Origin: a virus
IMG/VR virus record: IMGVR_UViG_3300008624_000090
Coordinates: 1-20,029 of that record
Length of the DNA: 20,029 nt
Strand: one strand, 5' to 3'
Below the pieces are notes generated by a model. The model had not been told where the DNA came from and ran no database searches. It was given only the letters and a program-made list of their open reading frames with translations. The position numbers and the translations under genes were made by a program. This document shows positions 8,071-17,491 of this stretch, piece after piece (position 1 is the first letter of the stretch; the number at the start of each line of letters is the position of its first letter).

Positions 8071-8522
8071 TATCTAGTAGCTCCATATACAGTTGCGCCA
8101 GTAGTAAGTAGAGATTGTCCAGCGTCAAAGTAGCTTTGTCTTTTAAGAAGTTTACCCTCCCACATAGCTAACATACCTTTTGCCTCTGACATTAATGCTT
8201 TATTTTCAGATCTTGATTTAGCATTTAAAGCATTAAATTTTAAAATTTCCGAATCTGTTTTTAATTCATAATCATTCTCTATTAAGGAGATTATAGGAGT
8301 ACCCTCTAAAGTAACACCGCTATTTAGATAAGATACTTTTATTTGATCTCTTATTTCTTCTGCAGTTTTATCAAATTTAGGTTTTTCAAATTTTTCGTAA
8401 AAATTCCAATTTTGAGTTTTAGTCTGTCTTTCAATATCAGCATCTCTCTCATAGAGAGATTTATTGTAAGCTCCTAATTTCTTTGCTGCTTTTCCGCCTG
8501 ATAAAATACTAATAAATGACAT
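8070..8522 (-). CDS. Internal virion protein, T7 gp14-like
   Basis: 150 aa, read from the ATG at 8522 (MSFISILSGGKAAKKLGAYN). This start overlaps the upstream stop as TAATG, whereas the longer reading from 8606 would run 28 codons back into the GNAT-like gene with no support. A short hydrophobic start is followed by a long helical region with Lys/Glu heptads, and a small Gly/Ala-rich C-terminus (SLLTTGATVYGATR). T7 gp14 is about 196 aa, forms the outermost core layer and inserts in the outer membrane on ejection; size, position and architecture fit this. No further motif is visible. Confidence 0.75.
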   Translation of the reverse strand: MSFISILSGGKAAKKLGAYNKSLYERDADIERQTKTQNWNFYEKFEKPKFDKTAEEIRDQIKVSYLNSGVTLEGTPIISLIENDYELKTDSEILKFNALNAKSRSENKALMSEAKGMLAMWEGKLLKRQSYFDAGQSLLTTGATVYGATR

Positions 8523-8971
8523 TAATAAACCTTTGCATATAAGTAGTGATCCGAACCATCTGGACCATAATTTCTCATTAAACCCTCTTTTTTGAATCCA
8601 AGCCATTCAGCAAATCTAATTGCTTTTTGCGAGTCTGCTTTTACAGCAGTTTGAATCCTTTTAATTTTATTATTTGCTGCTAATAAATCTGTTCTTTTTT
8701 TAATAGTCTTAGCGCAAAAAATTGGATATTTGAATATATCCCTCGATGCCAAGACCCACCCCTCGGCAACGCCATCCCAGAGATAACAGATACCTCCTGC
8801 CGCTATAGGTTTATTATTTAATAACCCTGTAAACGACATACCAACATCTTCTATATCGACCACATATTTTTTATGTTCTGGTCTCAATTCCAGCGAAACA
8901 TCATTCATTCCTAACGCTAGGATCTGTTTTGCATGTTCGCCTTTAAAAGGTACAATCTCTATTTTAGACAC
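8522..8971 (-). CDS. GNAT-fold internal virion protein, T7 gp13-like position
   Basis: 149 aa from a GTG start at 8971 that overlaps the end of the nozzle gene by 8 nt. The N-terminal half has the layout of a GCN5-type acetyltransferase (PFKGEHAKQILALG helix, then NKPIAAGGICYLWDG strand pair at 53-67), and the C-terminal part RIQTAVKADSQKAIRFAEWLGFKKEG (105-130) is typical of the last helices and strands of the fold. The acetyl-CoA phosphate loop (R/Q-x-x-G-x-G/A) is not visible where expected (about 80-95), so it may be catalytically dead. Phage proteins in the T7 gp13 slot (internal virion protein A) are often GNAT-like. A structural or assembly role is more likely than free acetyltransferase activity. 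Confidence 0.75.
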   Translation of the reverse strand: MSKIEIVPFKGEHAKQILALGMNDVSLELRPEHKKYVVDIEDVGMSFTGLLNNKPIAAGGICYLWDGVAEGWVLASRDIFKYPIFCAKTIKKRTDLLAANNKIKRIQTAVKADSQKAIRFAEWLGFKKEGLMRNYGPDGSDHYLYAKVY

Positions 8972-13968: not shown

Positions 13969-14181
13969 TTATTTCTCCTTTTTGTTTAGCATATTGTTAA
14001 TGAACAAGACAGTTGATCTTGCTCCCTCTAAGTATGCGCTTTCATGACTATCTCCTTTTATATGAGTAGTCGTGTTAAAGCTGCATCTCTTTTTAAGATC
14101 ATCAAGCACTCGCGCGCCATTCTCTGATCCAAAAGTCGTTTTATAATCTAATTCTAATTGTTTAAGATCTTTTTCATTCAC
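13969..14181 (-). CDS. Bbp19-like small phage protein
   Basis: 70 aa from a GTG start at 14181 that overlaps the portal's 3' end by 8 nt. The sequence shows YKTTFGSENGARVLDDLKKRC (12-33), then ESAYLEGARSTVLFINNML (47-65), which matches the family pattern 'F...GRRVL.DL...C ... AYREGRR.V...I..ML' of Bbp19-like phage proteins from memory. The family lies between portal and scaffold genes in many podoviruses; its function is unknown, and a part in head or connector assembly is inferred from location. No alternative ATG in this frame lies nearby: an ATG four bases on is in another frame with an early stop. The stop TAA sits within the scaffold's AGGAGAAATAA ribosome region. Confidence 0.75.
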   Translation of the reverse strand: MNEKDLKQLELDYKTTFGSENGARVLDDLKKRCSFNTTTHIKGDSHESAYLEGARSTVLFINNMLNKKEK

Positions 14182-15772
14182 TCGCTACCGCCTTTAATGC
14201 TGGAGCTGCTTTACCTGCAGCCTCTGCCATTTGCATTTCCTGCTGCATCTGTTGCATTTGCTGAGCTTGTTGTTCTTTCTGTTCTCTAATTTGTTCTACC
14301 TCAGCTCTGGATCTTAAAATTTTAGCTGGTAAACCTATAACATCTTTTAAGTGAGCCACTAAACCATCAACATCCAGGTAGTCAAAAACTGGTGCTGCTT
14401 GTTGAACTGCTCCAAATACTTCTATACCCCTCATGATTGCAGATAGATCTCCAGATTTTTGAGCTTTAGCAATAGGAGACACATATTCAATTTCTATCAT
14501 TTGATTTTGTAAAAATTGAGGTACCTCTTGAAATTTATTTTGTTTAAGTAATATATTGAAACATCTCGTTATTAATGGTTGTAATAATTCAGATTGAAGT
14601 CTGCCTAATACGGGTCCCAATATTCTCATCTTTTCCTCAGTACGCTGCATCACTTCTGTTGCTGTCATGTTTTGTCCAGCTACACTCATTAACTGATCTA
14701 CAAAGAAATTTTCTCTAATCGCTTTTCTTCTTTGCTCTTCCATCTGTAAACCTAAAGGCTGGTTACTACCAATATTTAATGGTTCAATTCTTTCTCTAGT
14801 TCCAGATCTATAGAAGTTTAATCCTCCAGGTACAGTTCTCACAGGTAAAACAAAGCCATCATCTGGGACCATTAAAGGTGGATCTATTTGTTTTTGAGCT
14901 GCTTTAATCGATACCTTAGACATTGTATTTAACATCTTAACATCGGGTAAAGCATTCATCGCAGGAGATCTGCCATAAGTTTCGTTTGATGCTTTTAAGT
15001 ATCTTGGAATAACATAAGGAAAATCATTAAATCCACTTTCACTAAATAAGAAACCTGTATCTTCATGAACATAACAACTTGAAAAAGGTTTATTAATATT
15101 GTTTTCATAAATACCACCCATCTCATTTGGCATTACTGCATGAAGTATTACTACATCATCTTGAGGTTTCTTTTTAACTATATCTGCTAAAGCATGTGGT
15201 AATTCTGCTTTTGGAAACATATCGGGAATAGATCTAGCTTTTAAAATAAATTTTCTAATAACTGTATCAACTATTCCTTTTTGATTTTCTGAAATATATA
15301 ATTCTGAAATATGAACTGTTTTAAATCTTAAATCATCATCGCTATCATTTTGAATAAACATTCCAGCTGTGCCAAAAGCTATAAGATCGTGATATAATTC
15401 AAAAATTTCCTGTTGGAAGTTTGATCTTGCAAAAGCTTGCAACATAACTTTATTACAATCTTCAAGCCATTCACTAGCTCCATCATCTTGATCAATAATA
15501 TCGTTTCTAAATTTTAAAGCAAACCAGGCAGAAGTTGTTGAAGTCAACATCCCATGTAGAGATGCCGCTAATAATTCTAAAGCATGAGTAGCAGTACCAT
15601 CGTAAATTTGATCGTGCCGCTTATCTCCTTTAGTTCTTTTAGATGTTATATCCGCTTTTCTTGGCAACATATAATCTGCTACATCTTGCCAGTGTGATTC
15701 CCATGTATTTCTTTGAGTCTTTAAAGATCCGTAAGTATCAATAACTTTTTTAGCTTTTGGTGTTAATTGCAT
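14174..15772 (-). CDS. Portal (head-to-tail connector) protein, T7 gp8 type
   Basis: 532 aa, very near T7 gp8 (536 aa). The N-terminus has the conserved RNTWESHWQDVADYMLPRK (21-39) and the ELLAASLHGMLTSTTSAWFAL stretch (66-86) of the Head-tail_con family. Further on are FGTAGMFI, YEN..., and the NMTATEVMQRTEEKMRILGPVLGRLQSEL helix, also typical. The C-terminus is a Gln/Met-rich coiled coil (about 488-520). Twelve copies form the channel through which DNA is packed and ejected. It uses an ATG with an AGGA site that overlaps the stop of the small KKTLLG protein just upstream, and it overlaps the Bbp19-like gene at its end. Confidence is high. Confidence 0.93.
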   Translation of the reverse strand: MQLTPKAKKVIDTYGSLKTQRNTWESHWQDVADYMLPRKADITSKRTKGDKRHDQIYDGTATHALELLAASLHGMLTSTTSAWFALKFRNDIIDQDDGASEWLEDCNKVMLQAFARSNFQQEIFELYHDLIAFGTAGMFIQNDSDDDLRFKTVHISELYISENQKGIVDTVIRKFILKARSIPDMFPKAELPHALADIVKKKPQDDVVILHAVMPNEMGGIYENNINKPFSSCYVHEDTGFLFSESGFNDFPYVIPRYLKASNETYGRSPAMNALPDVKMLNTMSKVSIKAAQKQIDPPLMVPDDGFVLPVRTVPGGLNFYRSGTRERIEPLNIGSNQPLGLQMEEQRRKAIRENFFVDQLMSVAGQNMTATEVMQRTEEKMRILGPVLGRLQSELLQPLITRCFNILLKQNKFQEVPQFLQNQMIEIEYVSPIAKAQKSGDLSAIMRGIEVFGAVQQAAPVFDYLDVDGLVAHLKDVIGLPAKILRSRAEVEQIREQKEQQAQQMQQMQQEMQMAEAAGKAAPALKAVASE

Positions 15773-15775
15773 AAT

Positions 15776-15982
15776 TTATCCTAATAATGTTTTTTTTCTT
15801 AATTTTAAATCGCCACTTCCTAAGCCTTGTGGTCCAGTTAAGATCATTGAAGATCTACCTTTACCTCTAGCTATATCAGATTTATCTGTAGCTGTAGCTT
15901 GTGAAATTTCTGGTTTCGTTGGAGCTACATAAACTGGAGCTGGTGGTGGTGGCGGTTTTGGTCTTGATACAAATCCTCCCAT
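15776..15982 (-). CDS. Proline-rich small protein, KKTLLG family, copy 2
   Basis: 68 aa, MGGFVSRPKPPPPPAPVYV. It has a proline-rich N-terminus, a basic middle (DIARGKGRSSMILTGPQGLG), and ends RKKTLLG followed by stop. The same plan, with ILT-(S/G)-P-x-G and KKTLLG at the end, occurs in the preceding gene, so the two are paralogues. Small Pro-rich proteins of this type lie between large terminase and portal genes in some alphaproteobacterial phages (from memory); their role is unknown, perhaps in head or connector assembly. The ATG is preceded by GGAGG, five bases off, lying in the last codons of copy 1. No membrane segment is present. Confidence 0.75.
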   Translation of the reverse strand: MGGFVSRPKPPPPPAPVYVAPTKPEISQATATDKSDIARGKGRSSMILTGPQGLGSGDLKLRKKTLLG

Positions 15983-15983
15983 A

Positions 15984-16208
15984 TTATCCTCCTAATAAAG
16001 TTTTCTTTTCAACAGTTGCCTCAGACTCATCTCCTAAAGGAGAGGTAAGAATAGTCTGTTTTCTACCTATTCTATTTCTTCTAAGCTTTGCTGCATCAGC
16101 TGCTGCTTGTTTTCTTCTTTCCTCATCCTCATAACTTGGAGCTGCTGGTAAAGGTTCGATTGGTGGTACAGGAGGCATCGCTGGAATTTTTGGTGTTAAA
16201 AAACTCAT
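15984..16208 (-). CDS. Proline-rich small protein, KKTLLG family, copy 1
   Basis: 74 aa: a proline-rich start (PKIPAMPPVPPIEPLPAAPS), an acidic/basic helix (YEDEERRKQAAADAAKLRRNR, 26-46), then KQTILTSPLGD and a KKTLLGG end. The last 25 residues align with copy 2 while the helix is longer here. Its ATG overlaps the terminase stop as ATGA, so translation is probably coupled to terminase. Two adjacent related copies suggest an ancient duplication, maybe with different partners, since the proline-rich parts differ. Function is unknown; a link to packaging or portal is inferred only from place. Confidence 0.78.
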   Translation of the reverse strand: MSFLTPKIPAMPPVPPIEPLPAAPSYEDEERRKQAAADAAKLRRNRIGRKQTILTSPLGDESEATVEKKTLLGG

Positions 16209-17491
16209 CTAACTAAACTCCCATGTATTTTATAATCATTCATAGCTATTTCTTGTTTTATTTTATGTTTATCCTCATAGTCATTAATAGACATCGCAAG
16301 ATACCTCATACTATCGCAGGCATGGCTGCTCCAATCATGAGTAGGCTTGTTATGAAACATTTTCATCTTCTCATTATACTTTCGATGATAATGTCTCAAA
16401 GCATCTATTAAAGGTTTTGTTTTATCCAGGTTAAAATAACATCTGGGTAAAAGCATCTTTAAACTGTGGATCCCATCCTCTAAAGGAATTTTAGGAAGTA
16501 TTCTAAATTTAATTCCTAACTGGTAAGCCACCTCTCTCCTAGTTTTTCCAGAAGAGAACTCTTGAACTTCAATATCGTGCGGTGCAAAATGTTTATCATA
16601 AATATAATCTTTTTCTTTAAGCACCTGGACATAATGAGGTAAACCCTCTCTTCGATTTTCATAAAAATCTATTACTCTTATGGTATTACCAAGCTTTTGA
16701 TAAAATACAATAGCTGTGGAATCTCCAACTCCAATGTCCCATGAAGTATTAACTAATAAACTTGGATCATAATCCATATTAACAATATGTTGATTATCTT
16801 CCAACTTCTTCATAATTTTACCATAAATGGATCCCTCAATATTTGCGATCCAATCACATTCAAACTCCTGGCGGAATTTAGTTTCCCCCATTTGTTTTTT
16901 AGCAGCGTCTAATTCTTCCTGGTCTATAATGCCTGTTTTTGATGCGGGAGCTGTATAAGTGAACCACTTAGGATCCGCTGTTGCCTGCTGGTATAATTCA
17001 TAAAATAGGTTAGACATTCCAGCTGGCGTACCGATCATATATGCGAACCCCTTACGATCCGATAGAGCGGGTCTAATAATCTCATTCCAGAGCTTAGGTT
17101 GGATCTGAGCTACCTCATCAATTATAACTCCATCTAAAGCCAAACCCCTTAGTGAATCTGGCTGCTCCGAGCTAAGTAAAGTTATTCGGCTGCCGTTGGG
17201 TAGATCACATCTTAATTCTGTTTCATTAAACCTGGTTGTTGGAATAGATCCAGCAAACATTTTCATATAATCCCAGGCTATGGATTTAGCTTGCTTATAG
17301 GTTGGAGCGATATATGCGTATCTCGGATTAACCATCTTATTTTGCAAAGCCGCCCGAATTAAATGATTCAACATGCAAACTGTTTTTCCAAATCTCCGAT
17401 GACACGCTAAAACCGCAAATCTATATTTATCTAATTCGTTATGTAATTTATTCTGCAGCTCTCTAGGAGAATATGGAATTTTAACGTGCAT
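16205..17491 (-). CDS. terL: Terminase large subunit (packaging ATPase-nuclease)
   Basis: 428 aa. The motor and nuclease motifs are visible: Walker A HRRFGKTV (31-38), Walker B VIIDE (122-126), coupling motif GTPAG (154-158), and a C-terminal RNase H-like nuclease with the acidic residue in WDIGVGDSTAIVFY (251-264), an acidic residue in the DFYE region, and HACDSMRYL (390-398). The layout matches the Terminase_6 type. It cuts the concatemer and pumps DNA through the portal. It is compact for a TerL (many are 450-600 aa). It begins with an ATG that shares a base with the stop of the 34-aa membrane peptide (TAATG) and ends in an ATGA overlap with the KKTLLG gene. In T7 this gene lies far downstream, so the order here is not that of T7. 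Confidence 0.95.
   Translation of the reverse strand: MHVKIPYSPRELQNKLHNELDKYRFAVLACHRRFGKTVCMLNHLIRAALQNKMVNPRYAYIAPTYKQAKSIAWDYMKMFAGSIPTTRFNETELRCDLPNGSRITLLSSEQPDSLRGLALDGVIIDEVAQIQPKLWNEIIRPALSDRKGFAYMIGTPAGMSNLFYELYQQATADPKWFTYTAPASKTGIIDQEELDAAKKQMGETKFRQEFECDWIANIEGSIYGKIMKKLEDNQHIVNMDYDPSLLVNTSWDIGVGDSTAIVFYQKLGNTIRVIDFYENRREGLPHYVQVLKEKDYIYDKHFAPHDIEVQEFSSGKTRREVAYQLGIKFRILPKIPLEDGIHSLKMLLPRCYFNLDKTKPLIDALRHYHRKYNEKMKMFHNKPTHDWSSHACDSMRYLAMSINDYEDKHKIKQEIAMNDYKIHGSLVR

Follow-up and report, generated by a model that had tools for sequence, protein, structure and literature searches.

In an ocean bacteriophage, the terminase and portal genes are separated by two small genes; the proteins they encode both end in KKTLLG(G), and the codons of that shared end double as the ribosome site of the following gene. 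This arrangement raises two questions: whether the peptide is held in place by the role of its DNA or by a need of the protein itself, and what the two proteins do. The stretch of DNA analysed here, which we call the window, is a virus record of 20,029 bases. The genes for the virion are all read from the minus strand, starting with TerS and TerL and continuing through copy 1, copy 2, portal, Bbp19-like gene and a 279-aa ORF to the major capsid protein (Table 1). The window portal is 55–60% identical to the portals of cultured HTVC010P-type Pelagibacter phages, with 57% identity to that of HTVC010P itself.

The first-pass annotation had described the pair as tandem paralogues between terminase and portal, with proline-rich starts, an unassigned function and end codons that serve the next gene; this description holds throughout. 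The ends KKTLLGG (copy 1) and KKTLLG (copy 2) are confirmed on the minus-strand ORFs. At the junction of copy 1 and copy 2 (ctttattaggaggataatATG), the gap is 1 nt and AGGAGG stands 5 nt ahead of the ATG; at the junction of copy 2 and portal (acattattaggataaattATG), the gap is 3 nt and AGGA stands 6 nt ahead of the ATG. The overlap is real but ordinary and is not special to this pair: a Shine-Dalgarno core was found at 8 of the 20 called gene boundaries of the window, in 5 of these 8 inside the upstream coding sequence. It is of the same kind as the overlaps described in PMC2784483, where genes 1–4 bp apart show a high presence of Shine-Dalgarno sites, placed towards the end of the upstream gene. 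Compared with those ordinary overlaps, the sole particularity of the window is that the overlapped codons encode a conserved peptide. Elsewhere in the window, a 149-aa ORF in the tail region (8522–8971) overlaps both of its neighbours and looks acetyltransferase-like by eye.

Table 1. Features of the two small genes and their neighbours, in window coordinates.
Feature	Position	Strand	Basis
Copy 1, PHROG 831 protein, 74 aa, Pro-rich N-terminus, C-terminal GRKQTILTSPLG...VEKKTLLGG	15984..16208	-	ORF, profile match, alignment
Copy 2, PHROG 831 protein, 68 aa, Pro-rich N-terminus, C-terminal GRSSMILTGPQG...LRKKTLLG	15776..15982	-	ORF, profile match, alignment
Codons of conserved motif GRKQTILTSPLG, copy 1	16032..16067	-	alignment A1; coordinates by hand from ORF
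Codons of conserved motif GRSSMILTGPQG, copy 2	15824..15859	-	alignments A1, A2; coordinates by hand from ORF
AGGAGG, Shine-Dalgarno site of copy 2, within last Leu-Gly-Gly codons of copy 1	15988..15993	-	
AGGA, Shine-Dalgarno site of portal gene, within last Leu-Gly codons of copy 2	15779..15782	-	
Portal (head-tail connector) gene, PF12236, E = 1.7e-136	14174..15772	-	Pfam match
Terminase large subunit (TerL); its end holds GGAG for copy 1, 4-nt overlap	16205..17491	-	

The two copies arose by an old tandem duplication within the PHROG 831 (epsilon15 gp3) family, whose small members are encoded directly upstream of the portal gene. Both match the phrog_831 profile, copy 1 at 4.8e-13 (profile positions 5–69 of 70) and copy 2 at 2.8e-13 (11–69 of 70), as do all 40 aligned relatives in alignment A1 at E up to 0.1. 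The Salmonella phage protein epsilon15 gp3 matches the same profile at 6.2e-34, and weaker matches come from BPP-1 bbp22 (0.0086) and a Limnohabitans phage protein (0.0031). Compared directly by BLASTP, copy 1 and copy 2 give E = 0.001; the profiles of their orthologue groups in the window group match at E = 2.3e-18, with a reversed control at 0.021. The hhalign comparisons join copy 1, copy 2, the corresponding HTVC010P-group sets, two Baldr-group sets and a GC-rich set, with Prob values of 86.9–99.8 except for HTVC010P copy 2 against Baldr copy a (58.5), and with reversed controls for the family-set pairs at or below 14.8. Orthologue profile pairs (copy 1–copy 1, E = 7e-28; copy 2–copy 2, 6.6e-19) outscore the cross pairs, and the duplication therefore seems, from these profile scores, to predate the split of the two HTVC010P-type groups.

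What the family shares is a C-terminal segment, GR.STILTG..G......KKTLLG, preceded by a variable N-terminal part that is proline-rich or of low complexity. Among the 40 sequences of alignment A1 the Gly of TLLG is invariant, and L72, T52, I53, T55, G48 and G59 are each present in at least 90%. In copy 2 of the HTVC010P group, 42 to 223 residues precede the motif (52 of 64 sequences, those in which the script located it). A portal of the PF12236 type follows the family gene directly in the window, HTVC010P, Greip, BPP-1, the Limnohabitans phage, Lederberg, BUCT711 and epsilon15, and in Baldr one extra small gene separates the two. Among the genome hits, a portal match adjoins the family gene in 7 of 9; with the BUCT711 protein as query, a single locus came out of the genome-contig scan. 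Epsilon15 gp3 and BPP-1 bbp22 share with the window pair both the position upstream of the portal and the C-terminus [ST][TM][IML]LTG..G...TLLG. They differ in number: next to the portal there is a single copy in epsilon15 and BPP-1 but a tandem pair in the window, and relatives have up to four small genes. Two database records touch on this family: Caudoviricetes MW202510 (locus L098) holds an unannotated family-like ORF between 1977 and 2498 that ends in RKTLLGQ directly before the portal, and Limnohabitans phage DC33 (L086) carries the taxonomy line Inoviridae despite its PF12236-type portal match.

AF2 produced no confident, usable fold for either copy: the mean pLDDT was 64.6 without secondary structure for copy 2 and 68.7 with one helix, at residues 29–50, for copy 1. 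In PDB searches neither copy, nor the family profile, had a significant relative (best E 0.28).

A known counterpart in gene place and size is found in T7, where genes 6.7 and 7.3, placed just upstream of portal gene 8, likewise encode two small low-complexity proteins. The end of gene 6.7 in T7 and K11 also holds GGAGG for the next gene, like the window copies. According to PMC11784390, twelve gp6.7 subunits sit between the portal barrel and the core, with loop I around the barrel, and six gp7.3 subunits anchor a C-terminal loop on two adjacent nozzle gp12 chains; the N-terminus of gp7.3 is credited with density encircling DNA, and both are described as ejected virion proteins. A C-terminal loop that is anchored and an N-terminus that is not resolved, as seen in gp7.3, are a further point of likeness. 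The two systems also differ. The T7 tails end GGGINI and SAFGGKK and the window family ends TLLG; in T7, gene 7 stands between 6.7 and 7.3 and gene 7.7 before the portal gene, whereas the window copies are directly tandem.

Membership of either T7 family was tested by hhalign, with reversed and T7 gp6.5 controls, and was rejected. Against gp6.7 (PF17570) the Prob was 0.5% for the merged family, 1.1% for copy 1 and 0.6% for copy 2. Against gp7.3 (PF11653) there was no Pfam match, and the merged family gave Prob 5.6% (E 0.0068); after realignment, only 16 N-terminal columns were left of a match between Baldr copy a and gp7.3 that had first scored a Prob of 60%. As these tests revealed no homology to the T7 proteins, the comparison is worded as 'works like' and not as 'is a'.

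We favour minor virion proteins of the portal and tail channel as the role of the pair, because of the T7-like gene place and size, the weak predicted structure, the variable N-terminus joined to a conserved C-terminus, and the gp14/15/16-like internal proteins that are encoded by Skadi, a relative of HTVC010P, according to PMC10504331. The copies would be present in low number. Each would be fastened by its conserved C-terminus to a ring protein, which could be the nozzle, the adaptor or the portal; its disordered N-terminus would be free to coat the inside of the channel or to contact the DNA end or the ejection core, as is reported for T7 gp7.3 and gp6.7. In HTVC010P-type phages this role would seemingly be divided among two to four neighbouring genes. 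In Peru-2, p2_32, which is T7 6.7/7.3-like in place and size, was detected at low abundance in the virion by mass spectrometry, according to PMC13320782. The literature searched, in the portions available, yielded neither mass-spectrometry nor mutant evidence for any PHROG 831 protein. Sources on bbp22, epsilon15 gp3 and pelagiphage cryo-EM, structural proteins and proteomics, mostly represented by less than their full text, held nothing on the family proteins, and the accessible portions of PMC11440229, PMC8954989 and PMC5850374 do not mention them.

The alternative that survives best is that the proteins act in the cell and outside the virion, as assembly or packaging factors: a portal chaperone, a terminase-docking protein or a head-completion helper. 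The position between terminase and portal is compatible with this, and proteins that are small and have little predicted structure could be chaperones. However, in epsilon15 and BUCT554 other genes separate the terminase from the family gene, which nevertheless stays beside the portal, and, by analogy, the products of the T7 genes at this position would speak against it, being ejected virion proteins. We therefore regard an assembly factor as possible but unlikely, and retain the portal/tail-channel virion protein as the working role.

To the second question, what holds the peptide, the first-pass annotation had offered its DNA as a possible answer: the need for a Shine-Dalgarno site for the next gene in these codons may partly fix KKTLLG(G). 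We searched for family members blind to the tail, using the A1 profile without the last 11 residues (of copy 1) against 790 small genes, of which 446 matched. Among their 257 distinct ends, 251 carry an LLG-type tail irrespective of the place of the next ribosome site, and the other six carry LG. By group, the tail is present in 83/84 ends of the window group with a gap of up to 4 nt and in 8/8 with the ribosome site in the spacer; in 98/98 ends of the HTVC010P group; and in 44/48 (gap up to 4 nt) and 7/8 (longer gap) ends of the Baldr group. Baldr-group proteins carry 1–11 residues after the Gly, which moves it away from the next start, and a Shine-Dalgarno core precedes the next start in only 3 of 51 Baldr contexts, yet the peptide is kept.

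The codons vary as well. Epsilon15 gp3 ends GKTLLGQ, encoded at its end by CTG CTT GGT CAG, and its portal is served by CGGAG in a 14-nt spacer, whereas the window portal has its site in the TLLG codons. GC-rich phages and prophages use other tail codons, for example CTC GGG GCG, CTC GGC CAA and TTG GGG CCG, so that Leu is read from CTG, CTC or CTT and Gly from GGG, GGC or GGT. Homologues that place the ribosome site elsewhere, or that use different synonymous codons, thus retain the tail. One observation points the other way: non-family middle genes with their own site end in KSQLG instead of TLLG in 5 of 8 distinct ends. That one peptide occurs both where a ribosome site overlaps it and where none does amounts to a natural experiment. 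Because the tail is kept with spacer sites, with distant starts and with other codons, it is held at the protein level; in the sequences compared, the TLLG peptide does not follow the ribosome site, and it is probably kept for the protein's own need. As an account of TLLG, fixation by the Shine-Dalgarno site is largely refuted, and we consider it very improbable.

The part of the earlier claim that survives concerns the synonymous codon of the Gly. The codon counts rest on small genes that precede the portal and have an LLG-type end (490 rows from 272 loci, reduced to 175 distinct contexts by removing repeats of an identical context within a group). Loci L291–L304, distant portals found via BUCT711 with no family gene seen upstream, were excluded beforehand, as were small genes without an LLG-type pattern in the last 16 residues (SSLTFGE- and KSQLG-type ends). 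As only LLG-type ends were taken, these counts cannot show that the peptide persists, which the tail-blind search supplies.

Pooled over the pelagiphage groups, the Gly is GGA in 92/111 contexts whose next start lies 7–16 nt downstream and in 3/53 with the next start farther away, although the far contexts come mostly from one lineage (Baldr, 47/53, none GGA), so that lineage and distance are confounded. The background of GGA in portal genes is 39% in the window group, 28% in the HTVC010P group and 27% in the Baldr group. Within the window group alone, GGA occurs in 50/53 coupled contexts and in 3/8 with their own site (Fisher p = 4.6e-4), and a residue follows LLG in 32/53 coupled and 0/8 own-site contexts (p = 0.0015); both contrasts had also spoken for a peptide fixed by its DNA, and, since the contexts are related by descent, all these p-values overstate the evidence and are only indicative. 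When KSQLG ends are restored, own-site GGA rises to 9/14 against 50/53 (Fisher p = 0.008). This restored own-site set has GGA in 1/6 family ends and in 8/8 non-family distinct ends, and the latter is evidence against the codon rule.

The T7-like phages supply further cases in favour of a DNA role. T7 gp6.7 ends FGGKK, with GGAGG 9 nt before gene 7; K11 gp6.7 ends LGG, read ttaggaggctaacATG, and holds the site of the next gene; and IME15 has GGGAG within the last codons of gp6.7. In Luksen and pEp_SNUABM_10 it is the spacer that holds the site. In the pelagiphage group of the window, the ribosome site of a gene is usually contained in the end of the gene before it. We conclude that the ribosome role shapes mainly the choice of the synonymous Gly codon (GGA) in the pelagiphage group and does not explain the peptide; the counts suggest that the overlap governs the codon. 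The extra residue in coupled contexts leaves room for one addition: the site may be the reason why copy 1 has its last Gly, which would then be ribosome-driven. In the Baldr group, none of the 47 far contexts uses GGA for the Gly of LLG, against a background of 27%, which possibly reflects avoidance of misplaced Shine-Dalgarno-like sites or a codon habit of the lineage.

The number of small genes at this place varies. In a first survey of 86 portal loci, two small genes were chained upstream of the portal in 53, three in 13, four in 10, one in 8 and none in 2; the low counts include contigs that end there, non-family small genes are also counted, and, because a script called the gene starts and chains, some N-termini and some copy numbers at contig ends are uncertain. 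Two to four small genes are present here in many pelagiphages, and some of these genes combine a similar tail with an unrelated body. In Greip, TerL and portal are separated by four. Some middle-gene bodies, of the RPEKLK and SSLTFGE types, have no profile link to the family, and the non-family middle genes end in QTLLG, KSQLG, TTLGA or SLTFGE. In HTVC010P (L083), an unannotated SSLTFGE-type middle gene at 2437–2640 is interrupted near an A run and is intact in relatives; the interruption may be an error, decay or slippage. Greip gp19 (L084, 3408–3593), annotated as 'translation initiation factor IF-2-like protein', is actually a small SSLTFG-type gene between TerL and portal, without a phrog or Pfam match at E up to 1.

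The two paralogues of the Baldr group flank an acyltransferase-like gene (phrog_4470), an order that is fully visible in 25 of 83 loci, for instance at 1402–2316 of L099 and 1065–2035 of L090. The T7 order, with gene 7 between 6.7 and 7.3, is parallel to it. Homology of the acyltransferase-like gene to T7 gene 7 was not supported (hhalign 0.2%); in Pfam, T7 gene 7 had no match and the WRT gene at that place had a weak GNAT match (E 0.027).

The variable gene number admits a more speculative thought. KTLLG may be a portable C-terminal docking tag, carried by unrelated bodies and binding one portal or tail ring, with tagged genes swapped and multiplied to tune the ejection channel; the RPEKLK-type middle protein and long low-complexity proteins would carry it alongside the PHROG 831 copies, and so perhaps would the SSLTFGE-type middle protein. 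The idea rests on short similar ends, for which chance or shared origin could account, and we hold it as a doubtful proposal. That the shared gene-end DNA, TTATTAGGAGGATAA..ATGGGAGG, is instead a recombination linker where small genes come and go would fit the number of genes between TerL and portal, up to four, and the somewhat similar tails of inserted bodies unlinked to the family (W_mid, H_mid), but the DNA differs between groups where the peptide is kept, and a separate ribosome site mostly comes after the W_mid gene, which makes this the least probable of the readings.

Taken jointly, the explanation that we favour with moderate confidence, and in part by analogy, is that the pair are old PHROG 831 paralogues, that the ribosome overlap is tied to GGA and not to the peptide, and that the proteins would be portal/tail-channel virion proteins with a C-terminal anchor. 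HTVC010P-type viruses are widespread in the sea, and this explanation would give a plausible role to a gene pair that had no name in them. Through epsilon15 gp3, it also ties these pelagiphage genes to a relative that lends itself to experiment.
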